Positions 3,715-46,238 of a stretch of DNA of 55,339 nt are shown in pieces; position 1 is the stretch's first letter; each line of letters opens with the position of its first letter. Position numbers and translations under genes: made by a program. A model generated the notes under the pieces. It saw nothing but the letters and a program-made list of their open reading frames with translations. It searched no databases and was not told where the DNA came from. The stretch is from contig NZ_JACJQJ010000054.1 in the NCBI RefSeq assembly GCF_014696615.1, positions 1 to 55,339 of the forward strand. Reading direction: 5' to 3'. The stretch is from Nostoc linckia FACHB-104 (GTDB taxonomy: Bacteria; Cyanobacteriota; Cyanobacteriia; Cyanobacteriales; Nostocaceae).

Positions 3715-4815
3715 TCACCATTTCTGGTCGGGAACCCAGTTATAATTTTTGTCCTTGACATCTATCTTTTTCGGAATAATCTTTAGCTCATAGAAGGTAT
3801 CCGCCATCCGCTGTAACCCTGAAAGCACTTCATCAGTTACAGGTAACACGCTGCGATCGCCTCCTCGCTTTTCCACAATTTCCATTGTTGGTTCGTCAAT
3901 TTTGTAGACTTTAGAAAGCAATTTGGCAGAATCTTTGTAATTAGTTTTTGACCAAGAACCTGCTTTTTCTAATTCTTGTAAAATTATCTTGACAATATCA
4001 GGATGGTCGCGCACAAAATCGGGAGCAGCATAATAGAATGAAGGGCTTTCTAAGGCAGCTTGATCGCCAAATACTGCAGAATTATCTGCTAACAAACGAG
4101 TACGCAGCTTTTGTTCAGCTTGTGCTGTGTAAGGGTCCCAAATCAACCATGCATCAATATCACCACGTTCAAATGCTGGTAAGGCTTCTGCTGGAGTCAA
4201 ATACAAAGGTTGGATATCAGTAAATTTTAATCCTACCTTCTCTAAGGCACGTACTATAATATAGTGCTGTCCTGAACCTTTAGCAAAAGCAACTTTTTTA
4301 CCTTTCAAATCTGACAGCGTTTTAATAGGTGAATCTTCTTTCACCAAAATAGCTGAACCTCTGGTACTACCAATTCCAGCAGCTACTCTCACAAATGGTT
4401 TATCGCTAGCTTGTGCAAATACGCTTCCTGTACCGCCACCACCACCAAAAACAATACTACCGACACCCATCCCTTCTAAAAGTGGCGCAGTAGAAGAAAA
4501 TTCGCTCCATGTCACAGATATACCTTGAGGTTGTAAGCGCTTTTCTAAACTTCCCTGTGCTTTTAGAATATTTAAAAGTGCCATCCCTTTTTGATGACCC
4601 ATTTTTAGCACTGTTAACTGGCTTTTTTGTGGTTCTTGTTTTGCAGCATTGGCAGAGTTGGTAGAGTTATGCGGGGTACAAGATGCGAGAGTTAGACTTA
4701 ATCCCAAGCCAATCATAAATAACAGAAGAAAATTATTTATTTTAGGCTTATATATTCTGCGTAAGATTCTCTGGTTAATCCAAGGTAAGAGTTTATTTGT
4801 GAGTTTACTGAACAT
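3715..4815 (-). CDS. Sulfonate-type ABC substrate-binding lipoprotein (SsuA/TauA family), copy 1
   Basis: Periplasmic-type binding lipoprotein, 366 aa, of the family that binds alkanesulfonates, taurine or related anions. A positively charged N-terminus precedes a hydrophobic stretch and lipobox LASC. Family motifs are KMGHQKG near the start of the mature part, a Gly-rich VFGGGGGTGSVFAQ, KKVAFAKGSG and FERGDIDAWLIWDPY. It is closely similar to copy 4 at 53762-54853, including an almost identical C-terminus, and more distant from copies 2 and 3. It lies 79 bases upstream of metQ on the same strand and downstream of the ferritin-like and monooxygenase genes. The ligand cannot be read from sequence. 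Confidence 0.85.
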   Translation of the reverse strand: MFSKLTNKLLPWINQRILRRIYKPKINNFLLLFMIGLGLSLTLASCTPHNSTNSANAAKQEPQKSQLTVLKMGHQKGMALLNILKAQGSLEKRLQPQGISVTWSEFSSTAPLLEGMGVGSIVFGGGGGTGSVFAQASDKPFVRVAAGIGSTRGSAILVKEDSPIKTLSDLKGKKVAFAKGSGQHYIIVRALEKVGLKFTDIQPLYLTPAEALPAFERGDIDAWLIWDPYTAQAEQKLRTRLLADNSAVFGDQAALESPSFYYAAPDFVRDHPDIVKIILQELEKAGSWSKTNYKDSAKLLSKVYKIDEPTMEIVEKRGGDRSVLPVTDEVLSGLQRMADTFYELKIIPKKIDVKDKNYNWVPDQKW

Positions 4816-5888: not shown

Positions 5889-6938
5889 TTAAGCTACTAG
5901 TTCTCGCGATCGCACTCGTGGCATTACTTCTTCAGCAAAACGTTTCATTTCTGGGGGAAACGGTTGGAATTGCAGCATGAAAGTATCTACACCAACTGCT
6001 ACAAAATCTGCAATTCTGGCGGCTACGGTGTCATAACTACCAACTAACCCCGCCGCTGTTCCGCCATTACTTCCTACCCCTGGATATTTCGCCATATTCT
6101 TGAACATCACCACATCTGGTTCTACGCCTTTTATCAGTTCGGTTCTGTCGTCTTGTTGGGCGAGTTCTCGCAGGTACTCATATTCGGCTTGGGCTTCTGC
6201 ATCAGTAGGCCGTGCAATCACAAAAGCTGACATAGCAAACCGCAGAGGATGAGGTTTTTTCCGTTCCCGCTTTCTCACATCAGCAATGGTTTCCCTGATT
6301 ACATCCAATGGACGACCATTGAGAAAGAATACATCAGCTGTTTCCATTGCCAGATTCTTGGCTGCATCCGATTCTCCTCCCAGATATACAAGGGGATGCG
6401 GTTGCGCTATGGGACGCGGACGCAAGCATAAATCACTAATTTGAAAATATTCGCTGTGATAATTAACTTTTTCGCCACTCCACAAAGCTTTGACTACCTC
6501 CATCCACTGCTGAGAATAGCGATAGCGTTCATCATGAGGTAGGAAAGGTATGCCGGATTTTTGCAATTCCGGCATAAACCAGGCGCTGATTAAATTAATT
6601 GCAAACCGTCCGCCACTAATGGCATCAATATTTAATGCCATCTTCGCCAAAACTACCGGATGAAATAGCAAAGGTTTAATGGCGGCGATAATTTCTATAG
6701 ATTTAGTTGCTTCTGCTAGGGCGGCTGCGGTTGTCCAAGTCTCTAGCTGATCTAATTCTTGATTTCTCGGATTGATAATGTGTTCAGCGATGAGAGTGGT
6801 GGTGAACCCATAGGCTTCTGCTAGTTGGATGAGTTGCTTGGCTCTGTTGTAGCTAGCATCACGGGGTTCATACGGGTGGTTCATCGCGCCACAATTGCCG
6901 TAAACGGGAATCCAAATCCCGTATCGTGGCTGAGGCAT
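5889..6938 (-). CDS. LLM-class flavin-dependent monooxygenase, SfnG/SsuD-like, copy 1
   Basis: Luciferase-like TIM-barrel monooxygenase, 349 aa. SsuD-type enzymes use FMNH2 and O2 to release sulfite from alkanesulfonates; SfnG-type enzymes act on dimethyl sulfone. Motifs seen are LAEAYGFTTTLIAEH, KPLLFHPVVLAKM, the flavin-site GGRFAINLISAW, HDERYRYS and the C-terminal GTAAGLVGSYDTVAAR. It is closely similar to copy 2 at 48508-49581 but lacks that copy's repeat-derived insertion. It heads a minus-strand pair with the ferritin-like gene. A TAC(G/T)GTAAAT motif lies about 110 bases upstream. No flavin reductase gene is adjacent. Sulfonate versus sulfone substrate is undecided. Confidence 0.85.
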   Translation of the reverse strand: MPQPRYGIWIPVYGNCGAMNHPYEPRDASYNRAKQLIQLAEAYGFTTTLIAEHIINPRNQELDQLETWTTAAALAEATKSIEIIAAIKPLLFHPVVLAKMALNIDAISGGRFAINLISAWFMPELQKSGIPFLPHDERYRYSQQWMEVVKALWSGEKVNYHSEYFQISDLCLRPRPIAQPHPLVYLGGESDAAKNLAMETADVFFLNGRPLDVIRETIADVRKRERKKPHPLRFAMSAFVIARPTDAEAQAEYEYLRELAQQDDRTELIKGVEPDVVMFKNMAKYPGVGSNGGTAAGLVGSYDTVAARIADFVAVGVDTFMLQFQPFPPEMKRFAEEVMPRVRSRELVA

Positions 6939-7581: not shown

Positions 7582-8376
7582 ATGGCATTGGAAACACGCG
7601 GAATGCACTTGAAGTTGAAGGAACTAAGCAAGTCTTTTGGGACAAAAACAGTTCTACAAAATATTGATTTAGAAATTAAGCCAGGCGAATTTGTGGCTAT
7701 TGTTGGTCGTAGTGGATGCGGCAAAAGTACAATGCTGCGGCTAATTGCCGGCTTAGATGCAGCAAGTGCAGGTGGTGTATTTTTAAATGACCAACAATCT
7801 CACCAGCAGATTAATCCCACCATCCGTATGATGTTTCAAGATCCGCGACTTCTGCCTTGGCAACGAGTCATAGCAAATGTGGAACTAGGCTTACTGGGTT
7901 CTAACTCTAAAGCTTATGTGAGGCAGACAGCTTTACAAGTGCTGCGGGCGGTGGGATTAGAAGACCGCGCTCATGAGTGGCCATCAGTCCTTTCTGGTGG
8001 ACAGCGCCAACGGGTGGCGTTAGCTAGAGCTTTAACTAGCAAACCTTCGCTATTGCTACTAGATGAGCCTCTAGGGGCGTTGGATGCCTTAACGCGTATT
8101 GAAATGCAGCAATTATTAGAGAATCTATGGCAGGAGCAGCAATTTACAGCCCTGTTAATTACTCATGATGTGGAAGAAGCTGTAGTGTTAGCAGACCGAG
8201 TAGTTTTGATTGAAGATGGTCAAATTGGTCTGGATGTCAAGATTGATTTTCCCCGTCCTCGTTCTCGGGGAGATGCAGAGTTTGCCAAGACGGTTGAGAA
8301 GATTTTACAACGGGTAATGACCAGACAAGAAAGCGATCGCGCGTCTGATTATGCCCTAGATTCAGAAGCAGCTTAG
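7582..8376 (+). CDS. ssuB: Sulfonate-type ABC transporter ATPase
   Basis: ATP-binding subunit of an SsuABC/TauABC-type importer, 264 aa. Walker A GRSGCGKS is at 42-49, the Q-loop in [11 protein letters not shown], signature LSGGQ at 137-141 and Walker B LLLLDEP at 157-163, followed by THDVEEAV. The [10 protein letters not shown]-loop is characteristic of the nitrate/sulfonate/taurine group. An AGGAGG ribosome-binding site 9 bases before the ATG fixes the start. The next gene downstream is the DszC/SfnB-like monooxygenase, 38 bases away. No cognate SsuC permease is encoded in this window, so the partner must lie elsewhere. SsuB is the best name, but a TauB role is possible. Confidence 0.88.
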
Positions 8377-8414: not shown

Positions 8415-9602
8415 ATGGTGCAACTATTAGTTAAAGACGAATCTCAAGATTGGATTTCTATAGCATCCTCCCTGGCTGTGGAATTGGCTGCAACTGCAGT
8501 CCAAAGAGACCAAAAAGCGGGACTTCCAGATATAGAAATTCAACTGTTGCGGGAAAGTGGTTTATTACCTTTAGTCGTACCCAAAGAATATGGCGGTACT
8601 GGTGCAACTTGGGCAGAAGCTTTTAAAGTGATTCAACAACTTTCAACAGCAGATGGTTCTATTGGTCAGTTGTATGGCAATCACCTGAATTTGACAGCTT
8701 TAGCTCATGTTTCTGGTACAGCAGAGCAAAAAGAAAGATATTATCGCGAAACAGCCGAAAAAAATCTCTTTTGGGCTAATGCCATTAATACACGCGATAC
8801 CAGGCTAAAAATTACTCCTGAAGGCGAAAATTTTCGGGTGGATGGGGTAAAAAGCTTTGGTACTGGTGTAGCGATCGCAGATTTGCGTGTCTTCTCTGCC
8901 CTCCAAGATGGTGTAGAAGTCCCCTGGTTGTTTGTCATTCCTAAAGACAGACCAGGAGTAGTTTCTAACCAAGATTGGGATAACATCGGACAACGTCGTA
9001 CAGATAGCGACACATTCACCTTTCATGATGTATTGGTAAAAAAAGATGAAATCCTGGGATATCCTCATCCTACTGATAGTGCTTTTGGTACATTTTTGGG
9101 AATCATCGCTCAATTAACCAAAACCTACATTTATTTAGGGATTGCCGAAGGTGCATTAGCTGCGGCGAAAGAATACACCAAAACTCAAACTAGAGCTTGG
9201 ATTACCTCTGGAGTAGACAGCGCCAGCAAAGACCCGTATATTTTGCGGCATTATGGCGAATTTTGGGCAGAACTGCAAGCCGCTATTGCTTTGAGCGATC
9301 GCACAGCCGCCCAAGTGCAACAAGCTTGGGATAAAGGCGCTGATTTGACTTTAGAAGAACGAGGAGAAATTGCGATCGCGGTGTTCTCCGCCAAAGCTTT
9401 GGTTACCCGTGTGGGGTTAAATATCACCAACGGCATCTTTGAAGTCACTGGAACCAGATCCACAGCTACTAAATACGGCTTTGACCGCTACTGGCGAGAC
9501 TTGCGTACCTTTACCCTCCACGATCCAGTTGATTACAAACTTAATCACATTGGTAATTGGGTACTAAATCAAGAGTTACCAATTATTACTCAGTATTCTT
9601 GA
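8415..9602 (+). CDS. Acyl-CoA-dehydrogenase-fold monooxygenase, DszC/SfnB-like
   Basis: Flavoprotein of 395 aa with the acyl-CoA dehydrogenase fold but with features of the flavin-dependent oxygenase branch. Members include DszC, which oxidises dibenzothiophene sulfur, and SfnB-type proteins of sulfur acquisition clusters. The N-terminal helical part carries PKEYGGTGATWAEA, the middle has a QRRTDSDTFTFHDV barrel segment, and the C-terminus has RDLRTFTLHDPVDYK, closely matching the DszC-type His-bearing motif. An AGAGGGG ribosome-binding site precedes the ATG. It follows ssuB by 38 bases and is likely co-transcribed with it. Reduced flavin would have to come from a reductase encoded elsewhere. 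The substrate is inferred to be an organosulfur compound. Confidence 0.8.
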   Translation: MVQLLVKDESQDWISIASSLAVELAATAVQRDQKAGLPDIEIQLLRESGLLPLVVPKEYGGTGATWAEAFKVIQQLSTADGSIGQLYGNHLNLTALAHVSGTAEQKERYYRETAEKNLFWANAINTRDTRLKITPEGENFRVDGVKSFGTGVAIADLRVFSALQDGVEVPWLFVIPKDRPGVVSNQDWDNIGQRRTDSDTFTFHDVLVKKDEILGYPHPTDSAFGTFLGIIAQLTKTYIYLGIAEGALAAAKEYTKTQTRAWITSGVDSASKDPYILRHYGEFWAELQAAIALSDRTAAQVQQAWDKGADLTLEERGEIAIAVFSAKALVTRVGLNITNGIFEVTGTRSTATKYGFDRYWRDLRTFTLHDPVDYKLNHIGNWVLNQELPIITQYS

Positions 9603-10642: not shown

Positions 10643-12811
10643 ATGTACAACTATATTTTGAACCTTACTGTTTCTCCTGCCACAATTGCAATTATTGGGG
10701 GTGGGTTTAGTGGTTCTCTTGTTGCAGCGCATATTTTGCGAAATGCAACCATACCAATTTCCATTAAGTTAATTGAACGGAGAACAGAAATTGGTAAAGG
10801 AGTTGCATATAGTACGTCAGTTGCGGGACATTTGCTGAACGTACCAGCCGGAAAGATGAGTGCTTTTGCAGATAAACCCAAACACTTCTTAACCTGGCTG
10901 CATAAAAATGGATATACCGACGCTACTGCATCGACATTTGCACCGCGTCAGGTGTATGGAGATTATATACAGGGGATTTTAAATGAAGCTGAAGCCAATG
11001 CCCCTACTCATGTAAGCTTAGAGAGAATTTGCGATGAAGCGATCGCTATTGAAACCACCACCTATAACACCGAAATCCAACTAAGTAGCGGTAAATCTCT
11101 GCACGTGCAAAAAGTTGTACTCGCTTTGGGGAATTTTCCAGCTTCATTACCACAATCTATTGCAGCCCTAGGAAATAATCATCCCAATGTTAAAGATGCT
11201 TGGTCAACTGATGCAATTAGCAATCTGCGCCCAGATGATTCTATTCTGTTAGTAGGAACTGGGTTAACAATGGTTGATGCAGTTGTGGCTTTAAATCAGC
11301 AAGGATTCCGGGGAAAAATTCATGCTGTTTCTCGTCATGGATTAACCCCTCAAAGCCACCAAGCTACAATTTATTATCCTGAATATCTGGACTTGCAAAC
11401 TGCACCAAAAACTGCGCGGGGATTACTGCGCTTAGTACGCCGAGAAATTAAAACAGCAGCTATTTACGGTTATGATTGGCGGGCGGTAATTGATGCTATG
11501 CGTCCACTCTCTCAACAACTTTGGCAAACACTACCACTTGCAGAACAGCAGCGCTTTCTCCGCCATGTCAAAGCTTACTGGGAAGTTTATCGCCACCGAA
11601 TTGCAGGAGAAATTGCTGAACTATTAGATAGCACACTCCAATCTGGTCAACTAAATTATTATGGTGGGCGGATTCAGAGTTGTCAGGAAGTGGACAATGC
11701 AATTGAAGTGAAAATTTGTGAACGGCGAACCCAAGCAGAGATTGTTTTGCAGGTAAACCGAATTGTTAATTGCACGGGTTCAAATTGCAACTATAAGAGG
11801 TTAGAAAATCTACTGGTTACCAGCTTACAAGCACAAGGATTGATTCGCCCTCATGCTTTGTCAATAGGGATTGATACAGCCGCCAACGGTGCGGTAATTA
11901 ATGCTCAAGGAAAAGTTTCCGACATACTTTATACTCTAGGAACACCACGCAAAGGCGACCTTTGGGAAACTACAGCTGTTCCAGAAATTCGCTCTCAAGC
12001 AGCAGCTTTGGCTCAAGAGTTACTGAAATCTCTCAATCCTAGATCCTACGCTATGGAAAGAGATTGGTTCGCTCTCCATCCATTGAGCGATTTCCCCAAA
12101 CCTGCCATGCTATTTCGTCAACTGTTTGATCGAGAATCATGTACCTATACATACCTAATTGCTGATCCCCAAACCAAAGCCGCAATCTTGGTAGATCCGG
12201 TACTAGAACAGGTAGAACGCGACTTGCAAGTCTTGCAAAAACTGGATTTGACTTTACTTTACTGCTTAGAGACCCATATTCATGCTGACCATATTACCGG
12301 AACGGCTCAGCTAAGACAATTTACAGGTTGTTGGAGTGTTTCACCAGATAAGACTGTGCCGAGCGATCGCTATATTGCTGATGGTGAGATTTTACAATTA
12401 GGTTCTGTACAAATTCAAGCGATCGCTACTCCCGGACATACCGATTCTCATATGGCTTACCTTGTTAACGGTACTCACTTGTTAACTGGAGATGCTTTAT
12501 TTATTGGGGGTTGTGGTCGTACCGACTTCCAAAACGGTAATCCTGGGTTATTGTATGATGTCGTTACCCAAAAGCTATTTACCTTACCAGATGACACATG
12601 GGTATTTCCCGGACACGACTATCAAGGGAGAACTGTATCAACAATTGGTGAAGAAAAACGCTGGAATCCCCGGTTTTTGGGACGCACCCGTAGTCAATTT
12701 ATTGAACTGATGAACAATTTAAACCTTCCTTATCCGCAAAAGATGTCGGAAGCCGTACCCGCCAACCAACGCGGAGGCAAAGTTTTAGTGAGGTTAGATT
12801 ATCAAATTTGA
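10643..12811 (+). CDS. Fusion: FAD/NAD(P)-binding oxidoreductase + ETHE1-like persulfide dioxygenase
   Basis: One 722-aa reading frame with two enzymes. Residues 12-465 form an FAD/NAD(P)-binding oxidoreductase of the YdhS/hydroxyacylglutathione-independent type: first dinucleotide motif GGGFSG (19-24), LNVPAGKMSAF, and a second motif GTGLTM (205-210). Residues 471-722 form a metallo-beta-lactamase-fold persulfide dioxygenase: THIHADH (544-550), PGHTDSH (597-603), GDALF (616-620), GCGRTDFQ and PGHDY (656-660). ETHE1-type enzymes oxidise glutathione persulfide to sulfite. The junction begins at a Met (codon at 12053) with no ribosome-binding site, so a true fusion is favoured. It stands alone on its strand. 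The flavin half's reaction is unknown; it may generate or channel sulfane sulfur. Confidence 0.82.
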   Translation: MYNYILNLTVSPATIAIIGGGFSGSLVAAHILRNATIPISIKLIERRTEIGKGVAYSTSVAGHLLNVPAGKMSAFADKPKHFLTWLHKNGYTDATASTFAPRQVYGDYIQGILNEAEANAPTHVSLERICDEAIAIETTTYNTEIQLSSGKSLHVQKVVLALGNFPASLPQSIAALGNNHPNVKDAWSTDAISNLRPDDSILLVGTGLTMVDAVVALNQQGFRGKIHAVSRHGLTPQSHQATIYYPEYLDLQTAPKTARGLLRLVRREIKTAAIYGYDWRAVIDAMRPLSQQLWQTLPLAEQQRFLRHVKAYWEVYRHRIAGEIAELLDSTLQSGQLNYYGGRIQSCQEVDNAIEVKICERRTQAEIVLQVNRIVNCTGSNCNYKRLENLLVTSLQAQGLIRPHALSIGIDTAANGAVINAQGKVSDILYTLGTPRKGDLWETTAVPEIRSQAAALAQELLKSLNPRSYAMERDWFALHPLSDFPKPAMLFRQLFDRESCTYTYLIADPQTKAAILVDPVLEQVERDLQVLQKLDLTLLYCLETHIHADHITGTAQLRQFTGCWSVSPDKTVPSDRYIADGEILQLGSVQIQAIATPGHTDSHMAYLVNGTHLLTGDALFIGGCGRTDFQNGNPGLLYDVVTQKLFTLPDDTWVFPGHDYQGRTVSTIGEEKRWNPRFLGRTRSQFIELMNNLNLPYPQKMSEAVPANQRGGKVLVRLDYQI

Positions 12812-16876: not shown

Positions 16877-17959
16877 ATGTTGTCTGAGCGCTTTCCATCT
16901 CGAATATTAAACATTTTTCTCCGTTTTTTCCAGAACTTTCAGCACAGAAGAATTCGGATTTTTTCCTTACTGTTTGCAGTTGGGCTTGGTTTAGTTTTAT
17001 TTGTGTCTGCTTGTTCTTCCAGCACAACGCAGCAAGCAACAACAACACCCACAGAACAGGCAACATCCACACCTAATCAAAGTCCAGCAGTTAGCAGTAA
17101 TACAGTTAGAATCGGATTTCAAAAAGCCGGGACTATTTTAAACGCATTGAAAACCAGAGGCGATTTAGAAAAAGCTTTAGCGGCTTCTGGTGCTTCTGTT
17201 ACCTGGAGTGAATTTCCATCAGGCCCGCCAATGTTAGAGGCTATCAACTCCGGTAGTATAGACTTCGGCTATACGGGAGAAGCACCGCCAATATTTGCCC
17301 AAGCTGCAGGTACACCCTTAGTCTATGTAGCTTACGATCCTTGGAGTACTAAGGCTGAAGCCATTCTCGTTCACAAAGATTCGCCAATTAAAACAGTGGC
17401 GGATCTCAAAGGTAAGAAAGTAGCTTTCGCCAAAGGTTCCAACACGAACTACCTAGTAGTAAAAGCCCTAGAAAAAGCTGGACTCCAATATAGCGACATC
17501 CAACCCGTTACCCTCCAACCTGCCGATGGACGTGCTGCGTTTGAAGGTAAAAACGTTGATGCTTGGGCAATTTGGGACCCTTATTTAGCTTTAGCAGAAA
17601 AAGCCACAGGCGCACGCACTTTAACCGACGCAACAGGATTAGCGCCGAATCGTGGTTATTATTTGGCTGCTAAATCTTTTGTAGATGCTCATACTGATAC
17701 TTTGAAAATAGTTTTAGATGAAGTGAAAAAGACTAGCGACTGGGCCAAGAATAATCCTAGTGAAGTGGCTAAATTTCTCTCGCCTGCATTAGGTATTGAT
17801 GCAGCTGTTTTAGAGGTAGCAGAAAAGCGTCGTGATTATGGTGTGCTGACAATTACCGATGAAGTAATTGCAAAACAGCAAGAGATTGCTGATGCATTCT
17901 ACAAAATCAAACTTATACCGAAGCAAATTAATGTTAAGGACATAGTTTGGCGTAATTAG
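16877..17959 (+). CDS. Sulfonate-type ABC substrate-binding lipoprotein, copy 2
   Basis: SsuA/TauA-family binding lipoprotein, about 360 aa. The ATG at 16877 is preferred; a GTG at 16850 gives nine more residues. A basic N-terminus, a hydrophobic stretch and lipobox VSAC precede a Thr/Gln-rich linker. Family motifs are VRIGFQKAGTI, EFPSGPPMLEAINSGSIDFGYTGE, KKVAFAKGSN and FEGKNVDAWAIWDPYLA, and it ends INVKDIVWRN. The TGEAPPIFAQA segment is typical of aliphatic sulfonate-binding proteins. It is the first gene of the plus-strand group with the AprA-like flavoprotein, 105 bases downstream, suggesting that it captures that enzyme's substrate precursor; this is inference. Confidence 0.87.
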   Translation: MLSERFPSRILNIFLRFFQNFQHRRIRIFSLLFAVGLGLVLFVSACSSSTTQQATTTPTEQATSTPNQSPAVSSNTVRIGFQKAGTILNALKTRGDLEKALAASGASVTWSEFPSGPPMLEAINSGSIDFGYTGEAPPIFAQAAGTPLVYVAYDPWSTKAEAILVHKDSPIKTVADLKGKKVAFAKGSNTNYLVVKALEKAGLQYSDIQPVTLQPADGRAAFEGKNVDAWAIWDPYLALAEKATGARTLTDATGLAPNRGYYLAAKSFVDAHTDTLKIVLDEVKKTSDWAKNNPSEVAKFLSPALGIDAAVLEVAEKRRDYGVLTITDEVIAKQQEIADAFYKIKLIPKQINVKDIVWRN

Positions 17960-18056
17960 GGAATTGGGGATGGGTAATTGGTAATGGAAATTTATCTCCT
18001 TGTTATCCCCTAATTCCCAGTCCCCAATCCCCAATCCCCAGTCCCCAATCCCCCAG
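17960..18056. repeat. heptamer repeat region (CCCCAAT/GGGTAAT)
   Basis: The gap between the binding protein and the AprA-like gene is mostly degenerate heptamers, TTGGGGA/TGGGTAA on the left and CCCCAAT/CCCCAGT on the right. The last unit runs into the AGGTGAT ribosome-binding site of the next gene. The two halves could pair as a long imperfect hairpin. Confidence 0.6.
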
Positions 18057-18064
18057 GTGATGAT

Positions 18065-19774
18065 ATGGAAATAACTACACAACTGATAAAAACCGATGTA
18101 CTAGTGATTGGCGGTGGTACGGCGGGGACGATGGCCGGAATTAAGGCGAAACAGGCTAATCCGGCGGCAGATGTCCTGATTTTGGAGAAGGCTAATATTC
18201 GGCGGAGTGGTGCGATCGCAATGGGAATGGATGGCGTAAATACAGCCGTCATTCCTGGGTACTCAACGCCAGAACAGTATGTCCGCGAAGTCACCATTGC
18301 TAATGATGGGATTCTCCATCAAAAAGCTGTCTACCAAACCGCCTTGCTAGGCTTTGAAACTATTCAAGAACTAGAAAGTTGGGGTGTGAAGTTCCAAAAA
18401 GACCCCCAAGGCAATTACGATGTTAAGCAAGTGCATCGGGTAGGCAAATATGTATTGCCAATGCCTGAAGGCAAAGATTTAAAAACCATTCTTACCCGAC
18501 AGGTGAAGCGCCATAAAGTTAATGTTACCAACCGCGTTATGGCGACTAGGGTTTTGGTAAGAGAAGGAAGGGCGATCGGTGCGGTTGGGTTTGATGTACG
18601 TGGTGGGGATTTTGTTGTCATCCAAGCTAAAGCCGTCATTCTTTGCACTGGTGCTTGCGGAAGGTTGGGATTACCTGCGTCAGGCTATCTCTACGGTACT
18701 TATGAAAACCCCACGAATGCGGGTGATGGTTACTCAATGGCTTACCATGCAGGCGCAGAATTGAGTAACATTGAATGCTTCCAAATTAATCCCTTAATTA
18801 AAGATTACAACGGCCCGGCTTGCGCTTATGTTGCCGGGCCTTTTGGTGCATATACCGCCAACGCAGAAGGACACCGCTTCATTAATTGTGATTATTGGAG
18901 TGGGCAAATGATGCTAGAAATTTGGAAAGAATTGAACTCTGGTAAAGGGCCAATTCAGTTAAAAATGACGCATTTGGATGAAGATACTATTTCTGAAATT
19001 GAGTCTATTTTATGGTCAAATGAAAGACCAAGCCGGGGAAGATTTCATGAAGGTAGAGGCGAAAACTATCGCACCCACGGTATTGAGATGAATATCTCAG
19101 AAATTGGCTTGTGTAGCGGACATAGTGCTTCTGGTGTTTGGGTAAATGAAAAAGCTGAAACCACAGTACCAGGATTGTATGCAGCTGGAGATATGGCAAG
19201 TGTTCCTCATAACTATATGATTGGGGCATTTGTATTTGGTCGTTTGGCAGGAACTCATGCAATTGATTACATCCAAGATTTGGAACATTTAGAACCTGAT
19301 GCTGAATTTTTAGATGCAGAAAAAGCGAGAATTTATGCACCATTAAATCAGCCTAATGGCATTCCCCATACTCAGGTTGAATATAAGCTACGGCGACTAG
19401 TAAATGATTATTTACAACCGCCAAAATCAAATTACAAAATGGAGATTGGGCTGAATAGTTTTGTTCGTTATCATGATGCTCTAGCTCAAATGGGAGCGCG
19501 CGATCCACATGAATTAATGCGCTGTATGGAAGTGCATTTTATTAGAGATTGTGCGGAGATGGCTGCAAGAGCATCTCTATATCGTCGAGAAAGCCGTTGG
19601 GGACTTTACCACTATCACTTAGATTTTCCTGAGAAGAATAATCAAGAGTGGTTTTGTCATGTAAATTTGAAGAAGAATGCAGCGGGGGAAATGGTGTTAT
19701 TTAAGCGTGATGTTGAACCTTATATTGTGGATGTGGATTTAGGTAGAGAGGTTTATGATGTAGCAGTTAAATAA
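18065..19774 (+). CDS. AprA-like flavoprotein (APS reductase alpha / fumarate reductase family)
   Basis: FAD-dependent oxidoreductase, 569 aa, cytoplasmic. The FAD-binding GGGTAG is at 16-21. It is followed by EKANIRRSGAIAMGMDGVNT (41-60), which resembles AprA of dissimilatory APS reductase more than succinate dehydrogenase. CTGACGRLGLP is near 194 and GLYAAGD at 370-376. A C-terminal helical part holds YRRESRWGLYHYHLD (503-520) in place of the usual RxESRGxH. An AGGTGAT ribosome-binding site precedes the ATG. A ferredoxin resembling AprB lies two genes downstream. Cyanobacteria normally reduce sulfate through the assimilatory route, so an AprA role in sulfate respiration is unlikely. Oxidation or reduction of an organosulfur compound is inferred. 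Confidence 0.75.
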   Translation: MEITTQLIKTDVLVIGGGTAGTMAGIKAKQANPAADVLILEKANIRRSGAIAMGMDGVNTAVIPGYSTPEQYVREVTIANDGILHQKAVYQTALLGFETIQELESWGVKFQKDPQGNYDVKQVHRVGKYVLPMPEGKDLKTILTRQVKRHKVNVTNRVMATRVLVREGRAIGAVGFDVRGGDFVVIQAKAVILCTGACGRLGLPASGYLYGTYENPTNAGDGYSMAYHAGAELSNIECFQINPLIKDYNGPACAYVAGPFGAYTANAEGHRFINCDYWSGQMMLEIWKELNSGKGPIQLKMTHLDEDTISEIESILWSNERPSRGRFHEGRGENYRTHGIEMNISEIGLCSGHSASGVWVNEKAETTVPGLYAAGDMASVPHNYMIGAFVFGRLAGTHAIDYIQDLEHLEPDAEFLDAEKARIYAPLNQPNGIPHTQVEYKLRRLVNDYLQPPKSNYKMEIGLNSFVRYHDALAQMGARDPHELMRCMEVHFIRDCAEMAARASLYRRESRWGLYHYHLDFPEKNNQEWFCHVNLKKNAAGEMVLFKRDVEPYIVDVDLGREVYDVAVK

Positions 19775-19834
19775 GTTAATGAATAATTAACCACAGATAA
19801 ACCTTTTCTTTAATGATTAATGAGAAATGTGCAA

Positions 19835-20617
19835 ATGCCTATTTATGATTCCATTGGTCAACAATATACAACAACTCGCATCCCTGACTATCGCATTGTG
19901 CAGAAGATAATCGACTTACTCAATTTACCACCAGGTAGTCTGATTGCTGATATTGGCGCGGGAACTGGTGGTTACTCACAGGCGCTAGCTAATCGGGGAT
20001 TTTCTGTTTATGCAGTTGAACCATCATCGGTAATGCGTCAACAAGCATTAGAACATCCACAAGTGCAATGGTTTAATGGCTATGCAGAAGCTTTACCTTT
20101 AGCCGATAAATCTGTAGATGGAGTGATTAGTATTCTGACAATTCATCATTTTTCTAATTTAGATAAAGCATTTCAAGAAATGCATCGGATTATTCGGGAT
20201 GGGCCAATTATATTGCTAAGTTTTGATATTAGATTTGCTCAAAGAATATGGTTGTATGATTATTTCCCTTGGATGTGGGAAGATGCATTAAAATTTCTCC
20301 CGCTGCATGAAATTATCAGTTTAATTGAGCAGAATACTCAAAGGAGAATTGAAGTCATACCTTTGATGTTACCCTACGATTTATCTGATTTATTTGCTGC
20401 AGCTGCTTGGAGACGACCTGAGTTATATCTTCAAGCAGAAGTACGCGCTGGAATATCTTCTTTTGCTTTAGGTAATGCTGATTTAATTGCATCTGGTGTT
20501 AAATCTCTTGCAGCAGATTTAAGTAGTGGGGAATGGGATGCAAAGTATGGAGATATTCGTCAGGTTACAGAAATTGATGCAGGTTATCGTTTTTTTAAAG
20601 CAAAGATTGTTAACTAA
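19835..20617 (+). CDS. Class I SAM-dependent methyltransferase in the AprAB-like group
   Basis: About 260 aa from the ATG at 19835 (an upstream ATG at 19820 adds five residues; neither has a strong ribosome-binding site). Motif I is IADIGAGTGGYSQAL, motif II YAVEPSSVM, and GVISILTIHHF is the expected post-I segment of UbiE/ArsM-like enzymes. It lies between the AprA-like flavoprotein (60 bases upstream) and the AprB-like ferredoxin (95 bases downstream) on the same strand, so it is likely part of the same transcript. The substrate is unknown; S-methylation of a thiol is a possibility without direct evidence. Confidence 0.8.
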   Translation: MPIYDSIGQQYTTTRIPDYRIVQKIIDLLNLPPGSLIADIGAGTGGYSQALANRGFSVYAVEPSSVMRQQALEHPQVQWFNGYAEALPLADKSVDGVISILTIHHFSNLDKAFQEMHRIIRDGPIILLSFDIRFAQRIWLYDYFPWMWEDALKFLPLHEIISLIEQNTQRRIEVIPLMLPYDLSDLFAAAAWRRPELYLQAEVRAGISSFALGNADLIASGVKSLAADLSSGEWDAKYGDIRQVTEIDAGYRFFKAKIVN

Positions 20618-20712
20618 AAATATCATACATAAATTCTTTGTGAAATATTAGTCTTGCTGTAGGGTGGGCATTGCTGAGAAGAAAAATCTACTAACAATTA
20701 CAGAGGTATCAC

Positions 20713-20940
20713 ATGGCTTTAATTAATCAAAGAGTAGATGTTCCCGTGATTGTGGACGAGTCTAAATGTTTAGAAAAATGTAGAGTTTGTATTGAAGTTT
20801 GTCCACTGGATGTACTAGCCAAAAATCCGGAAACTGGCAAAGCATATATGAAATATGACGAATGCTGGTTTTGTCTTCCTTGCGAAAGGGAATGTCCAAC
20901 AAATGCCATTAAGGTGCAAATTCCTTTCTTATTAAGGTAA
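20713..20940 (+). CDS. AprB-like 2x[4Fe-4S] ferredoxin
   Basis: Small electron-transfer protein, 75 aa, with eight cysteines for two [4Fe-4S] clusters: C19, C23, C26, C30 and C51, C54, C57, C61. The segment DECWFCLPCERECPTNAI resembles the second-cluster motif of AprB (CWECYSCVKMCP as I recall it), while the C-terminal tail of true AprB is missing. An AGAGGT ribosome-binding site precedes the ATG. With the AprA-like flavoprotein upstream it would form an electron-transfer pair. The partner assignment is inferred from linkage and motif likeness. Confidence 0.8.
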   Translation: MALINQRVDVPVIVDESKCLEKCRVCIEVCPLDVLAKNPETGKAYMKYDECWFCLPCERECPTNAIKVQIPFLLR

Positions 20941-20954
20941 AGATATAGTTCCAA

Positions 20955-20982
20955 AACAATTGGGACACAATGCCCAATTGTT
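20955..20982. terminator. hairpin after the ferredoxin gene
   Basis: AACAATTGGG (20955-20964) pairs perfectly with CCCAATTGTT (20973-20982) around an 8-base loop, 15 bases after the ferredoxin stop. No long T tract follows, so termination would be weak or processing-related. Confidence 0.45.
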
Positions 20983-21104
20983 AATAGTAATGCCTACCCT
21001 ACAGTATGATTAGTGGTTCACTCACTTAAAAGGCGATCGCTCGACTTTAACTATCATTAAATCAGGTCAGTATAGGAATTTTATCTCAAAAATGTAACAA
21101 GGTT

Positions 21105-21224
21105 ATGTCCCAATATCAGGTGAATCTTCATGTGAGGTTGAATATTGGCGAGGCTATTGCAACTGTCTGGGGTTGCGATTTGTCAGAAGGTTACGTAGAA
21201 ATTAATGGTAAATACTCAACTTAA
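21105..21224 (+). pseudogene. argJ 3'-end remnant (39 codons)
   Basis: An ATG-initiated frame of 39 codons whose last 25 residues (from GEAIATVWGCDL to the final YST) resemble the extreme C-terminus of ArgJ, glutamate N-acetyltransferase, which ends with a (A/V)WGCDLS-x-x-YV-IN--Y(T/S)T signature. The rest of ArgJ, including its autocleavage site, is absent. The frame is open only back to 21051. It is best read as a remnant of a duplicated argJ, though a small expressed protein cannot be excluded. It lies just before the HEAT-repeat gene. Confidence 0.55.
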
Positions 21225-21238
21225 TTATTAATTTTGCA

Positions 21239-22204
21239 ATGTCAATAAATATAGATTCGGAATTAAATGAATGGTTGGAAATGTTGCGATCGCCTGATGT
21301 CAGCGATCGCTTAGTTGCGGTAAAAACCCTGCAACACTTGGGGGATGAGGCGGCGATTGATGCGCTAATTGTCGCCTTACAAGACGAAAGCACCGCCGTG
21401 CAGAAAATCGCTATTACGGCTTTATGGGAAATTGCCAATCCTGTCGCTGTTCCCGCCTTATTACCTTGTCTAGCTTCAGCAGATGCAGAAGTTCGCAGTG
21501 AGGCGCTGTCAGCTTTGGGGGAGTTGACATCTTCAGAAGATTTGCTGTTGTTGCTAGATGCTTTACAGCAACCGGATATTAACCTGCAACTGAACGTGTT
21601 AATTTTGTTGCGAAAGATACATGATGCTCAGTCTCTCCCGGCGGTGCTATCCTTCTTTGAATCAGAACATCCCCAACTGCGAGAAGCGGCTGTTACTACT
21701 CTTAGCTATCTCAATCAAGTGCAGATATGCCCGCCAGCTTTATCTTTAATACGCGATCGCCATGACAATGTACGCCGTGCAGCGGCACTTACCTTAGGGC
21801 ATTTGGCAGATGCAGAGATAGTAGATTTACTTGGTAATGCATTAAATAATGATACCGATTGGCAAGTAAGGCGCAATGCTGCTAAATCTCTCGCGCTTCA
21901 TGCTGATGCCAAAATTATTCCGACTGTACTAATTTCATTGAAAGATGAACATTGGCAGGTGAGAAAATTTGCGATTCAAGTATTGCAGAAAATACCCGAT
22001 ATTCAGTCTTTACCTGCACTAATTGCCGCGCTAACAGATGAATATTCAGATGTGAGGAAAGAAGCTGCGATCGCACTTGGCAATTTGGGTAAAACTGAAG
22101 CTTTAAATGCCCTCAAACAAGCGCTAGATGATCCTGATCGGGAAGTTAGTATTTACGCACAAAAGGCAATTCAGAAAATTGCAGAACTAACGAAAACATC
22201 ATGA
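21239..22204 (+). CDS. HEAT-repeat protein
   Basis: 321 aa made almost wholly of about nine HEAT/PBS-lyase-like helical repeats of roughly 31 residues, with the recurring pattern D-x-x-VR--A---L--L (for example VRRAAALTLGHLADAE, VRKEAAIALGNLGKTE). Such proteins serve as scaffolds, chaperones for cofactor attachment, or phycobilin lyases. The closeness to the ferredoxin (about 300 bases) and same strand suggest that it could be an assembly or docking factor for the AprAB-like pair, which is inference. Two HIP1 sites lie within its first 80 bases. Confidence 0.85.
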   Translation: MSINIDSELNEWLEMLRSPDVSDRLVAVKTLQHLGDEAAIDALIVALQDESTAVQKIAITALWEIANPVAVPALLPCLASADAEVRSEALSALGELTSSEDLLLLLDALQQPDINLQLNVLILLRKIHDAQSLPAVLSFFESEHPQLREAAVTTLSYLNQVQICPPALSLIRDRHDNVRRAAALTLGHLADAEIVDLLGNALNNDTDWQVRRNAAKSLALHADAKIIPTVLISLKDEHWQVRKFAIQVLQKIPDIQSLPALIAALTDEYSDVRKEAAIALGNLGKTEALNALKQALDDPDREVSIYAQKAIQKIAELTKTS

Positions 22205-22914: not shown

Positions 22915-23718
22915 TTAAGCAGAAGGTGTTAATAAATCAATTGTACTAGCTGGCTGATTTGGTGTTTGTGATTTCCGCAATGTGACAAATGCAAGGATAG
23001 CAACTACTGTTAAATAAATACGTTGTAACCAAACATTGCTCAATTTAAGAGTTAAACGTCCGCCAATTATGCCACCTATAAACATTGTAGTGCCAAGAAT
23101 TATTCCTAAATCGTAATTTACTATCCCTTGTTGTAAAAAAATGATGGTGGCGATTAAGGAAGAAAATATATTGATAAATTTAGTAGTTGCGATCGCTTCT
23201 ACAAATGTCATCCGAAATAGCATTATATAAGCTGCGGTGAGGAGAGTGACATAACCACCACTGAAAAAACCTCCATAAATACCAAGAATAAACGTGACTA
23301 CATAGCCAGCAATTTCTGCAATGCGTGGGGGTATAAGTTGAGATGGGCTTATTCCAGCATGACGATTAATGACTGATAAGATAGCTACTATTATCATTGA
23401 AATAGAAATTATTAATGGCATTGATTTAGAGGGTAAAATCAGTACCAATAATGCGCCTAAAAATGAACCGACTATAGTTAATACAGTTAGTAATGGTAAG
23501 CGTTTAGGATTAATAACTTTCTTCCCAATAAAGGGCAATGTCCCGCCTATACTCATTAAAGTTAATGCAAACATATTGGTAGCGATCGCAGTTCGGGGTT
23601 CTATGCCAAATTCCAACATGACAGGCACAGTAATTAAAGATGTACTACCAGCAATCACACTAACAATGCTGGCTGAAAAAAATATTCCAGCCAGCAGAAT
23701 TATCTGCAAAATATCCAC
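22915..23718 (-). CDS. TauE/SafE (TSUP)-family permease, copy 1
   Basis: Integral membrane protein, 267 aa, with seven or eight hydrophobic helices. The TSUP signatures are in both halves: GSTSLITVPVMLEFGIEPRTAIATN near the N-terminus and GGFFSGGYVTLLTAA in the middle. TSUP members export sulfite, sulfoacetate or related anions made when sulfonates are degraded. A second TSUP gene is at 26575-27351. In this cluster export of sulfite is a reasonable inference. Confidence 0.85.
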   Translation of the reverse strand: MDILQIILLAGIFFSASIVSVIAGSTSLITVPVMLEFGIEPRTAIATNMFALTLMSIGGTLPFIGKKVINPKRLPLLTVLTIVGSFLGALLVLILPSKSMPLIISISMIIVAILSVINRHAGISPSQLIPPRIAEIAGYVVTFILGIYGGFFSGGYVTLLTAAYIMLFRMTFVEAIATTKFINIFSSLIATIIFLQQGIVNYDLGIILGTTMFIGGIIGGRLTLKLSNVWLQRIYLTVVAILAFVTLRKSQTPNQPASTIDLLTPSA

Positions 23719-44616: not shown

Positions 44617-45624
44617 ATGAAAACCCGTCGCTATATTTTAATTGCGATCGCCACTTGTGTATTAACCTGGCTTTTAGCCTTAGCTGGCTGTAGTTCGCAA
44701 AATACCTCACAAAGTAACGTTTCTCCCGTTGCACAACCCTCTCCTAGTTCTTCACAGGTAAAGGTGATTAATATCGGTCATCAAAGCGGGACACCTGGAC
44801 TAAATTTGCTGAAAGCACGAGGATTGTTAGAGAAACGACTAACGCCAGAAGGTATCCAAGTTAAATGGATATCCTTCCAAGGTGGCCCCCCAATGATGGA
44901 AGCAATGGCAGCTGGTAGTGTTGATATAGGCAATGTCGGTAATTTACCGCCTGTATTTGCTCAAGCTGGTGGTAATCCCATCCTCTATGTAGCGGCGACG
45001 GGTTCAAATGCAGGCGCTCAAGCTATTATTGTGCCTAAAGATTCTCCTATTAAAACCCTTGCCGATTTAAAGGGGAAAAAATTAGCGATTCAGAAAGGAA
45101 CAGCACTACAATACTTTGTCCTCAAAGCTTTAGAAAGTGCAAAACTAACGCTAAATGATATTCAACCTGTTTACTTAAAAATTCCCGATAGTACCACAGC
45201 TTTTGAAGGTGGTAATGTCGATGCGTTACCTATTGGCGATCCCTATCTGGCTTCTAAAGAATTAAATGGTAGCGTACGCGTGTTAGTTAGAGGTTCCGAT
45301 GTCGCACCTCAACGCGCTTTTTACATTGCTACAGAAAATTTTGCCAAAAATCACCCCGATTTAGTCAAAATCGTTTTAGAAGAACAAGCCAAAGTAGAAG
45401 ATTGGGCTAAAGCTAATTCTACTGAAGTTGCCAAACTTTTGGCAGAAGAAACTAAATATAAGCCAGAGGTTTTGGAATATTCTTTAAAAAACCGTCCCTA
45501 TTTTGGTGTCTTTGAAATGAAGGATGAATATATCGCTGAACAACAACAAGTAGTTGATTTGTTCTACAGTCAAAAGCTAATTCCTAAAACCTTTCAAGTC
45601 AAAGATGCTATTTGGAAACCTTAA
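44617..45624 (+). CDS. Sulfonate-type ABC substrate-binding lipoprotein, copy 3
   Basis: SsuA/TauA-family binding lipoprotein, 335 aa, with a short signal and lipobox LAGC. Motifs: NIGHQSGTPGLNLLKARGLLEKRL, SFQGGPPMMEAMAAGSVDIGNVGN, KKLAIQKGTALQYF and FEGGNVDALPIGDPYLA, ending FQVKDAIWKP. The usual Trp of the WDPY motif is replaced (PIGDPY), and the GNVGN ligand-side segment differs from the GGGG of copies 1 and 4, so its ligand probably differs. It follows the GST-like gene on the same strand. Confidence 0.86.
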   Translation: MKTRRYILIAIATCVLTWLLALAGCSSQNTSQSNVSPVAQPSPSSSQVKVINIGHQSGTPGLNLLKARGLLEKRLTPEGIQVKWISFQGGPPMMEAMAAGSVDIGNVGNLPPVFAQAGGNPILYVAATGSNAGAQAIIVPKDSPIKTLADLKGKKLAIQKGTALQYFVLKALESAKLTLNDIQPVYLKIPDSTTAFEGGNVDALPIGDPYLASKELNGSVRVLVRGSDVAPQRAFYIATENFAKNHPDLVKIVLEEQAKVEDWAKANSTEVAKLLAEETKYKPEVLEYSLKNRPYFGVFEMKDEYIAEQQQVVDLFYSQKLIPKTFQVKDAIWKP

Positions 45625-45797: not shown

Positions 45798-46238
45798 TCA
45801 TAAAATTTCTGATAAAATCGGCAATCGACGCATTAAAATAACATTCATTTCCCTAGAAATATAATTATCAAATCGCTCGCGTAATAGGAATGGAACTTCG
45901 ACTGGTGAAACTTCTTGAAACTTTACTTGTTGATAAAAAGAGCGCAAATGTTGCCAAGGAATACAGTAACAAACTCGATTGACTAATTGCTTAGTACATA
46001 TCTGAAGCAGTTGCGTACCAATACCTTGACGCTGAAATGGTGCTAGAACTTGCATCCCTCGCAACACAAAAAAATCAATATTGGGACACAAACGTACTGC
46101 ACCAATAATTTTGTTATCTAAGTGAGCAATAAATATCAAATCTTCTTCGCTTATAGGCCCGCCTCCATAACCACATTTGCCATAAAAAACTTTAACGGCT
46201 TCAATATGATTTGGTTTTGCTTGGCTAATTTCGATCAT
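45798..46238 (-). CDS. GNAT-family acetyltransferase
   Basis: 146 aa with the acetyl-CoA motif APFQRQGIGTQLLQIC. Its ATG overlaps the stop codon of the MFS-Coq4 gene by four bases (ATGA), so the pair is translationally coupled. It resembles small GNATs of the MSMEG/ElaA type. The substrate is unknown; a link to the transporter's cargo is inferred from coupling. Confidence 0.8.
   Translation of the reverse strand: MIEISQAKPNHIEAVKVFYGKCGYGGGPISEEDLIFIAHLDNKIIGAVRLCPNIDFFVLRGMQVLAPFQRQGIGTQLLQICTKQLVNRVCYCIPWQHLRSFYQQVKFQEVSPVEVPFLLRERFDNYISREMNVILMRRLPILSEIL

Follow-up and report, generated by a model that had tools for sequence, protein, structure and literature searches.

Sulfonates make up a large share of the organic sulfur in soil and sea. 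Their carbon-sulfur bond is known to be cleaved by oxygenases such as SsuD and TauD or, independently of O2, by other enzymes such as Xsc, sulfo-lyases and glycyl-radical enzymes. The systems closest to the locus described here are, by fold, adenosine 5'-phosphosulfate (APS) reductase (AprBA) and the 3'-phosphoadenosine 5'-phosphosulfate (PAPS) reductase of Methanothermococcus thermolithotrophicus (MtPAPSR, 8a8o), and, by importer type, the sulfonate system SsuEADCB. The locus lies in a 55,339-nucleotide stretch of Nostoc linckia FACHB-104 (RefSeq assembly GCF_014696615.1, contig NZ_JACJQJ010000054.1, positions 1 to 55,339; hereafter the window) and encodes an AprA-like flavin adenine dinucleotide (FAD) protein (FLAVO), a small ferredoxin with two iron-sulfur clusters (FD) and a HEAT-repeat protein (HEAT) next to a sulfonate-type binding lipoprotein. 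The unit is real and conserved. Rather than a classical AprAB pair it is a sister family accompanied by HEAT, and most likely a sulfonate-processing enzyme.

FLAVO and FD share with AprBA the fold, Asn74, a His398-like motif, His446 and an equivalent of Trp48, but lack the APS contacts and the AprB tail and add a HEAT partner and a transporter. The likeness to MtPAPSR lies in the combination of an FAD alpha subunit with a small two-cluster ferredoxin beta subunit, as given in the accessible part of its description (PMC10322725); MtPAPSR, however, keeps Arg and Trp at AprA positions 265 and 234, where FLAVO has Leu and Tyr. On the Ilyobacter plasmid pILYOP02 (L146) the genes for cysC, an AprA-like protein, a ferredoxin and cysD probably form a PAPS-reductase-type AprAB operon of a fusobacterium; there AprAB stands directly beside cysC and cysD, whereas FLAVO is accompanied by sulfonate-type importers, HEAT and Mrp/DUF971 genes. 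With SsuEADCB the module has in common the importer type, ssuD-like genes in some loci and strong co-occurrence across genomes, but SsuD is an O2-dependent flavin mononucleotide (FMN) monooxygenase, and FLAVO-FD is predicted to be an iron-sulfur FAD system of another fold.

FLAVO carries the motif EKANIRRSGAIAMG at residues 41-54. Its best profile is NF006131 (PRK08275; 1012 bits, cut-off 587), followed by PRK13800 (928 bits), whose cut-off of 1196 is missed since HEAT is encoded by a gene of its own in the window; FLAVO belongs to PRK08275 itself, and PRK13800 is the FLAVO-HEAT fusion form. The AprA profile TIGR02061 is not reached (186 bits, cut-off 641.75). The closest solved proteins by sequence are MtPAPSR and then Archaeoglobus fulgidus AprA (2fja/1jnr). 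A Foldseek search with a FLAVO model likewise lists 8a8o first (28% identity), then A. fulgidus AprA; E. coli FrdA chains follow at a short distance and outrank AprA of D. gigas. The model is of medium quality (mean predicted local distance difference test score 69, active-site stretches below 50), and therefore its overall fold alone was used. In a tree of 25 proteins, computed without the partial sequence AprA_Af, the 14 FLAVO rows cluster together (88/90), AprA clusters with PAPSR (100/100), and the two clusters are set apart from SdhA, FrdA and NadB (100/100); long branches are flagged for NadB, SdhA_Ecoli, FrdA_Rhodoc, FLAVO_Nonom and PAPSRlike_Ilyo, and odd letter composition for both PAPSR rows. 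Judged by sequence, FLAVO is a separate branch beside AprA and the AprA-like PAPS reductase of Methanothermococcus, that is, a sister family of APS reductase. The functional name of PRK08275/PRK13800 is, on the same grounds, contradicted by tree and residues. The first-pass annotation had proposed an AprAB-like pair and had named a position within the fumarate reductases as the outcome that would speak against it; FLAVO falls outside them, and of the proposal the AprA-like kinship stands while the identity as APS reductase falls with the key APS contacts.

Residues were compared in 14 aligned FLAVO proteins (the AprA_Hydrog row was excluded from the residue table), with the roles of AprA Asn74, Trp234, Arg265, His398 and the adenine clamp Leu278/Arg317 taken from the accessible part of PMC2211403. 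Asn74 (FLAVO N59) and His446 (FLAVO H382) are kept in all 14, as is the His of a GHSAS motif, which aligns with the MtPAPSR His and lies one column off AprA His398. Replaced in all 14 are Arg265 (Leu244), Trp234 (Tyr213), the clamp residue Leu278 (Ala, Ser or Thr), Tyr95 (Glu75), Phe261 (Gln240) and Gly274 (Cys253); Arg317 allows no placement in the alignment, which is uncertain around AprA 141-145. The check for AprA active-site residues that the first-pass annotation had suggested thus finds Asn74 and the His398-like residue kept and Arg265, Trp234 and Leu278 lost. Four new motifs, H(H/R)xGxYVLPMPxG, DYWSGQM, ERP(S/T)RxxFH and PHNYMxGAF, are each present in 113 of 113 loci.

FD carries the motif DECWFCLPCERECP at residues 49-62. 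It matches Fer4 with 33 bits (cut-off 21.1) and the aprB profile TIGR02060 with 32.4 bits, below the cut-off of 135.65; HgcB (39.5 bits) and several other ferredoxin profiles score slightly above aprB, all below their own cut-offs, and in a PDB search formylmethanofuran-dehydrogenase ferredoxins outscore AprB. In the alignment to 3gyx_B, FD W52 coincides with the electron-relay Trp48 of AprB; eight Cys and the CW.C pattern occur in 107 of the 107 FD open reading frames (ORFs) that pass the filter, and the C-terminal tail of AprB is absent. The label "AprB-like", given at first sight, thus rests on the Trp motif and the AprA-like partner; the overall score is no closer to aprB than to other ferredoxins. 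Since the relay of FD is aligned and the pocket residues of FLAVO are replaced, the electron path is likely of the APS-reductase type and the substrate pocket is not.

The HEAT protein (HEAT_2, 170 bits, cut-off 27.7) matches positions 610-896 of the 898-position PRK13800 model, and in Nonomuraea (L143) FLAVO and HEAT form one polypeptide of 940 amino acids. This fusion argues for a physical association of the two proteins. HEAT had been taken for an assembly scaffold. Its fusion to FLAVO in Nonomuraea and in PRK13800 makes it look more like an associated subunit than like a scaffold only, and assembly fits the Mrp/NBP35 or DUF971 gene better.

A genome scan gave at least 574 confirmed stretches that encode a FLAVO relative; viral contigs gave no match. 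The loci for comparison were picked by FLAVO similarity (best 80 of the 574 confirmed stretches), and therefore the linkage counts describe the nearer part of the family. There are 110 distinct loci, 79 of them with at least 7 kb on both sides (44 cyanobacterial, 35 other). FD and HEAT were counted as linked when they lay within 8 kb of FLAVO on the same strand, with identical loci removed; counts over 113 or 116 loci include near-duplicates. FLAVO, FD and HEAT are linked in 43/44 cyanobacterial and 33/35 other well-flanked loci. HEAT is present in all 35 of the latter, and the two FD misses (L109, L126) are filter effects, a separate search showing an FD match in both. Among 31 shorter loci, 25 have FD and 25 have HEAT. 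The conserved linkage with the ferredoxin, on which the first-pass annotation had made its pair depend, is thus seen in other genomes. Of the five genes whose linkage was to be surveyed, FLAVO, FD and HEAT make up the conserved core; the methyltransferase occurs in 20/113 loci, all cyanobacterial, and as it lies outside the conserved unit the five-gene set is not conserved. The module is found in Cyanobacteriota (including Prochlorococcus), Pseudomonadota and Actinomycetota (one locus seen), and perhaps in Verrucomicrobiota (one short contig of a metagenome-assembled genome, MAG).

The linkage persists though gene order varies among groups. Cyanobacteria show either SBP470-permease-ATPase-(LysR)-FLAVO-FD-HEAT-Mrp or SsuA-FLAVO-[cargo]-FD-HEAT; Acinetobacter, Paraburkholderia and Pseudomonas often GntR-FLAVO-FD-SBP470-permease-ATPase-HEAT-DUF971; Sinorhizobium, Mesorhizobium and Methylobacterium DUF971-FLAVO-FD-HEAT; Thiobacillus and Halothiobacillus GntR-FLAVO-FD-HEAT-SBP470-permease-ATPase with an oxidoreductase of about 1190 amino acids; and Nonomuraea GntR-FD-SBP470-permease-ATPase-FLAVO::HEAT, followed by an SsuD-like gene and MetY on the other strand. 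The large oxidoreductase occurs in nine proteobacterial loci (sulfur oxidisers and relatives), and one copy (L136:16760-20350) is partly PRK06567/GltD-like (528 bits, cut-off 1072). A ferredoxin-NADP reductase adjoins the module in Methylobacterium. Mrp/NBP35 or DUF971 genes accompany 32/44 cyanobacterial and 31/35 other loci.

Several single loci deserve mention. The sole well-flanked cyanobacterial locus without FD and HEAT near FLAVO (L047, genome G044) has other cargo instead. In Nostocaceae (L031, L037, L039, L043, L046, L059 and others) the gap between FLAVO and FD holds GNAT, methyltransferase, HAD, VOC and TauD genes as well as MetY/MetX, dienelactone hydrolase and GST-like genes, and looks like an insertion-prone slot. 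The idea that such cargo proteins are sulfur-poor isoforms was dropped, their Cys plus Met content being uneven (0.6 to 13.3%). A LysR regulator of about 670 amino acids stands beside the module at L036:6403-8439 (minus strand), with similar genes in 19 cyanobacterial loci; the L036 copy shows a weak NMT1-type binding-protein domain behind the LysR part (E 4e-6), and the protein is possibly a sulfonate sensor. The module is also carried on Sinorhizobium and Mesorhizobium plasmids (L034, L144), in L034 with a NodA gene about 7 kb from FLAVO. In the Prochlorococcus loci L096 and L097, both from very small single-cell assemblies, importer, YeiH-like (28-29%) and amidase-like (25%) genes are neighbours; the module extends through Mrp in L096 and ends after HEAT in L097.

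The module is genetically linked to sulfonate import. A sulfonate-type binding protein lies near FLAVO in 39/44 cyanobacterial and 32/35 other loci, a permease in 13/44 and 31/35. The binding lipoprotein of the window reaches 250 bits against TIGR01728 (SsuA_fam, cut-off 163.5), its closest structure is E. coli SsuA (2x26, 243 bits), and two SBP470 proteins that were compared come closest to TauA or SsuA structures (63 to 67 bits). ssuD-like genes of at least 48% identity are found in 11/116 module loci. MetY matches occur in 8/116: five cover the full length with at least 56% identity (L046, L059, L066, L070, L143), two are partial and one reaches 33% identity. MetX is matched in 6/116; in L046, L059, L066 and L070 MetY and MetX lie between FLAVO and FD (tested by profile in L066 only). 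TauE or YeiH-type genes occur in 10/44 cyanobacterial loci.

The same link appears in whole genomes. Among 98 genomes, the window's own included, FLAVO is present in 27 and SsuD above cut-off in 28. SsuD was found in 23/27 genomes with FLAVO vs 5/71 without (Fisher 9e-14); kinship is corrected for only by counting the window's own genus once, which gives 16/20 vs 5/71 (3e-10), and among genomes of at least 6 Mb the counts are 13/16 vs 4/34 (3e-6). SfnB-like genes, counted at E 1e-60 because just 8 of the 98 genomes pass the SfnB cut-off, occur in 18/27 vs 6/71. PhnJ, a patchy control, falls short of significance (7/27 vs 8/71, p 0.07). The four FLAVO-bearing genomes that lack SsuD above cut-off (G068, G078, G095, G096) have no luciferase-like matches except one in G078; TauD-family matches number four in G068, two in G078 and two in G095, three of these eight lying in open frames of 1920 to 2556 amino acids. 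The cyanobacterial genome G096, a single contig of 99% completeness, has the module but gave no luciferase-like and no TauD match, and the same holds for two Prochlorococcus assemblies (G107, G108; 1.8 and 1.1 Mb). Xsc above cut-off and PF04295 were each found in 0 of 7 genomes checked. In the assemblies without such oxygenase matches the module is accompanied by an importer of its own and by a gene of the YeiH type, the TauE type or both (both in locus L058 of G096), and the simplest reading of them would be that FLAVO-FD itself performs the desulfonation, with sulfite as product. The sulfite reductase family PF01077 is present in 14 of 15 genomes with FLAVO, the partial G108 being the exception.

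Taken together, we suggest, with a probability of about 0.45, that FLAVO-FD-HEAT is a soluble, APS-reductase-type flavoenzyme with iron-sulfur clusters which acts on an imported organosulfonate and releases sulfite. An SsuA-type binding protein and an ATP-binding cassette (ABC) importer would bring in the sulfonate. Single electrons would pass the two [4Fe-4S] clusters and the conserved Trp of FD to the FAD of FLAVO; the ferredoxin-NADP reductase and GltD-like neighbours would fit either electron direction. By analogy with AprA, the reduced flavin could then take the sulfonyl group from the substrate via a flavin-N5-sulfite adduct, and sulfite and a desulfonated organic product would be set free. 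Sulfite would proceed through sulfite reductase to cysteine or homocysteine, with any surplus exported. HEAT may serve as third subunit or scaffold, and Mrp/NBP35 or DUF971 proteins may load the clusters. The idea, raised from the window alone, that a redox enzyme with a dedicated electron carrier handles an imported organosulfur compound agrees with this reading, in which sulfonate as substrate, sulfite release and electron flow into the flavin are what we infer. More tentative is the stronger form of the proposal, namely that the module is an unrecognised O2-independent, ferredoxin-driven reductive desulfonase, misnamed across Cyanobacteriota, Pseudomonadota, Actinomycetota and perhaps Verrucomicrobiota.

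A number of observations weigh against a sulfonate-cleaving enzyme. Arg265 and Trp234, both replaced in FLAVO, contact the sulfate group in AprA, and therefore the mechanism of AprA is not transferable unchanged. Without activation an alkyl carbanion leaves poorly, which would make an attack of N5 on a plain alkanesulfonate chemically hard and call for an activated substrate. On the side of import, the NMT1/SsuA-type binding family accepts ligands beyond sulfonates, and an SBP470 of Leptolyngbya (L036:2848-4359), which has a NosL-like C-terminal domain (E 1e-6), stays below the SsuA cut-off (121 vs 163.5 bits). TauE/YeiH-type genes were found in 0 of the 35 non-cyanobacterial well-flanked loci, and the YeiH match of Prochlorococcus L096 is 29% identical only. 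As to the assemblies without luciferase-like or TauD matches, G107 and G108 are partial and G096 carries one PFL-type glycyl-radical gene. Judged by their names (Thiobacillus, Halothiobacillus), several hosts are sulfur oxidisers, for which sulfur scavenging should be needless; in such chemolithotrophs a sulfonate might serve as carbon or nitrogen source, or the substrate might be another one. Finally, the open-licence literature searched yielded no description of the module and no expression or enzyme data, and the accessible parts of sulfur papers on Rhodococcus (PMC8557817) and Gordonia (PMC7661421) leave a FLAVO homologue unmentioned.

The alternative that survives best, though we regard it as unlikely, is a sulfonate dehydrogenase: FLAVO would oxidise the imported sulfonate at one of its carbons, much as related flavoproteins do with succinate, FD would take the electrons, and sulfite would leave in a later step, either by elimination or with the help of another enzyme. 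Importer linkage and SsuD co-occurrence fit it as well as they fit a desulfonase, the superfamily includes C-H dehydrogenases (SdhA), and the ferredoxin-NADP reductase and large oxidoreductase mentioned above could drain or supply electrons. Yet the checked SdhA residues His242, Thr254, Glu255, Arg286, His354 and Arg399, which we take to be those of the dicarboxylate enzymes, are conserved in none of the 14 FLAVO proteins, and the enzymes nearest to FLAVO act on a sulfonyl group at N5 rather than on C-H bonds. Less probable still is a role in sulfite handling, in which FLAVO-FD would oxidise or conjugate the sulfite freed by SsuD, TauD or SfnG-type oxygenases. The co-occurrence of SsuD and SfnB-like genes and the TauE/YeiH-type genes of cyanobacterial loci are consistent with it, and a precedent exists in AprBA of SAR11, proposed in the accessible part of PMC5069961 to detoxify sulfite from organic sulfur; but module and importer are present where luciferase-like and TauD oxygenases were not found (G096, G107, G108), and AprA residues that contact AMP/adenine, Leu278 among them, are lost.

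That the module serves sulfate assimilation as a true APS or PAPS reductase is very improbable, and we rejected this identity on account of the residues, the absence of linked sulfate-activation genes and the retained CysH-family genes. For it speak the kinship with MtPAPSR and AprA, the kept Trp relay and one alignment in which Lys128 of the window protein falls on MtPAPSR Lys120. In that alignment, however, the MtPAPSR triad Lys120/Arg121/Ser122, which replaces the Gln145 region of AprA, appears unmatched as a whole: Arg121 and Ser122 meet Tyr and Val. HMMER and MAFFT place the loop differently, and Lys128 is Ala or Thr in four proteobacterial rows of the family alignment; Arg265, Trp234 and Leu278 are lost throughout. 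A search with Ilyobacter queries (E 1e-15) found CysC, CysD and CysN in 0 of 116 loci. PF01507, which presumably covers both CysH and CysD, is present in 30/34 genomes with FLAVO, 29 of them read as CysH by match length; it was not found in a Thiobacillus (G127), a Hydrogenophilales (G115), a Halothiobacillus (G119) and an unplaced proteobacterial MAG (G113). True AprA above cut-off occurs in 3/14 genomes; Thiobacillus encodes two separate AprA in addition to FLAVO. Least probable of all is an ordinary flavoprotein of the fumarate reductase, succinate dehydrogenase or tricarballylate type, to which the NCBIfam name of PRK08275 and the nearness of FrdA to AprA in Foldseek with a medium-quality model would point: the separation in the tree (100/100) and the lost dicarboxylate residues led us to rule this identity out, and the TcuA profile gives 53 bits against a cut-off of 369.

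If the proposal of a reductive desulfonase is true, an importer-linked reductive route unlike the known C-S cleavage enzymes has been filed as fumarate reductase. It would explain the use of sulfonates by organisms without those oxygenases, e.g. some Prochlorococcus, and would show the APS-reductase fold to have been adapted to organic substrates. A misleading family name is corrected as well, with at least 574 stretches encoding a relative.

The five module genes all lie on the plus strand between 16850 and 22204 of the window (Table 1). ORF and family searches, with profile matches well beyond what chance would give, bear out the first-pass list of lipoprotein, flavoprotein, methyltransferase, ferredoxin and HEAT protein, and equally the assignment to a sulfonate-uptake cluster, given the additional SsuA-type proteins, the SsuB-like ATPase and the SfnG, DszC/SfnB and TauD-like genes nearby.

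Table 1. Genes of the module and associated sulfur-related genes in the window.
Feature	Position	Strand	Basis and remarks
SsuA-type sulfonate-binding lipoprotein, 369 aa	16850..17959	+	GTG start; in-frame alternative ATG at 16877
AprA-like FAD protein (FLAVO), 569 aa, NCBIfam PRK08275	18065..19774	+	NF006131 profile, nearest structures, tree
S-adenosylmethionine (SAM) methyltransferase	19820..20617	+	Methyltransf_11 match; variable cargo, outside the core
Two-cluster [4Fe-4S] ferredoxin (FD), 75 aa	20713..20940	+	8-Cys pattern, CW.C, alignment to 3gyx_B
ArgJ-like gene remnant (C-terminal 45 aa), between FD and HEAT	21087..21221	+	tblastn
HEAT-repeat protein, 321 aa	21239..22204	+	matches C-terminal part of FLAVO-HEAT fusion family PRK13800
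TauE/SafE-family exporter adjoining the module	22915..23718	-	PF01925, 123 bits
SsuB-like sulfonate transporter ATPase, associated, non-core	7582..8376	+	PRK11247, 351 bits (cut-off 395)
DszC/SfnB-like flavin oxidoreductase, associated	8415..9602	+	DszC 361 bits (cut-off 850); SfnB 300 bits (cut-off 431)
SfnG-like FMN monooxygenase, associated	5889..6938	-	TIGR04021, 240 bits (cut-off 383)
Further SsuA-type binding proteins	3715-4815, 44617-45624, 53762-54853		four SsuA-type proteins in all with that of the module

The window encodes two SfnG-like monooxygenases in total, a TauD-like protein, two TauE/SafE exporters, MetQIN-like genes and a rhodanese, so that the module is embedded in an organosulfur island; BLAST recognised no SsuC-like permease in it, and no Mrp/NBP35 or DUF971 gene was seen there. 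The source genome has 17 luciferase-like, 7 TauD and 8 SfnB matches (SfnB at E 1e-60). The DszC/SfnB-like gene has tblastn matches in 9/116 module loci, its own included. The TauE/SafE exporter next to the module possibly serves sulfite efflux, and a TauE-type gene follows HEAT also in L049, L053, L055 and L060. The ArgJ remnant is 80% identical to ArgJ of L049 over 45 amino acids (E 6e-19), and a whole ArgJ-like gene sits between FD and HEAT in the sister genomes of L049, L050 and L055 (Pfam assignment of the intact gene tested for L049 only).

A promoter and terminator scan gave no clear excess over shuffled sequence (18 vs a mean of 14.6, and 5 vs 5.0). Between the binding protein and FLAVO, at 17960-18062, short repeated C/G-rich motifs of the ccccaatccccagt type were spotted by eye. 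Two unusual ORFs lie elsewhere in the window: that at 10643-12811 fuses an FAD-NAD(P)-binding domain (PF13454) with a metallo-beta-lactamase/sulfur-dioxygenase-like domain, and the one at 46235-48382 (715 amino acids) joins a match to a major facilitator superfamily (MFS) efflux permease with a C-terminal Coq4 domain (PF05019).

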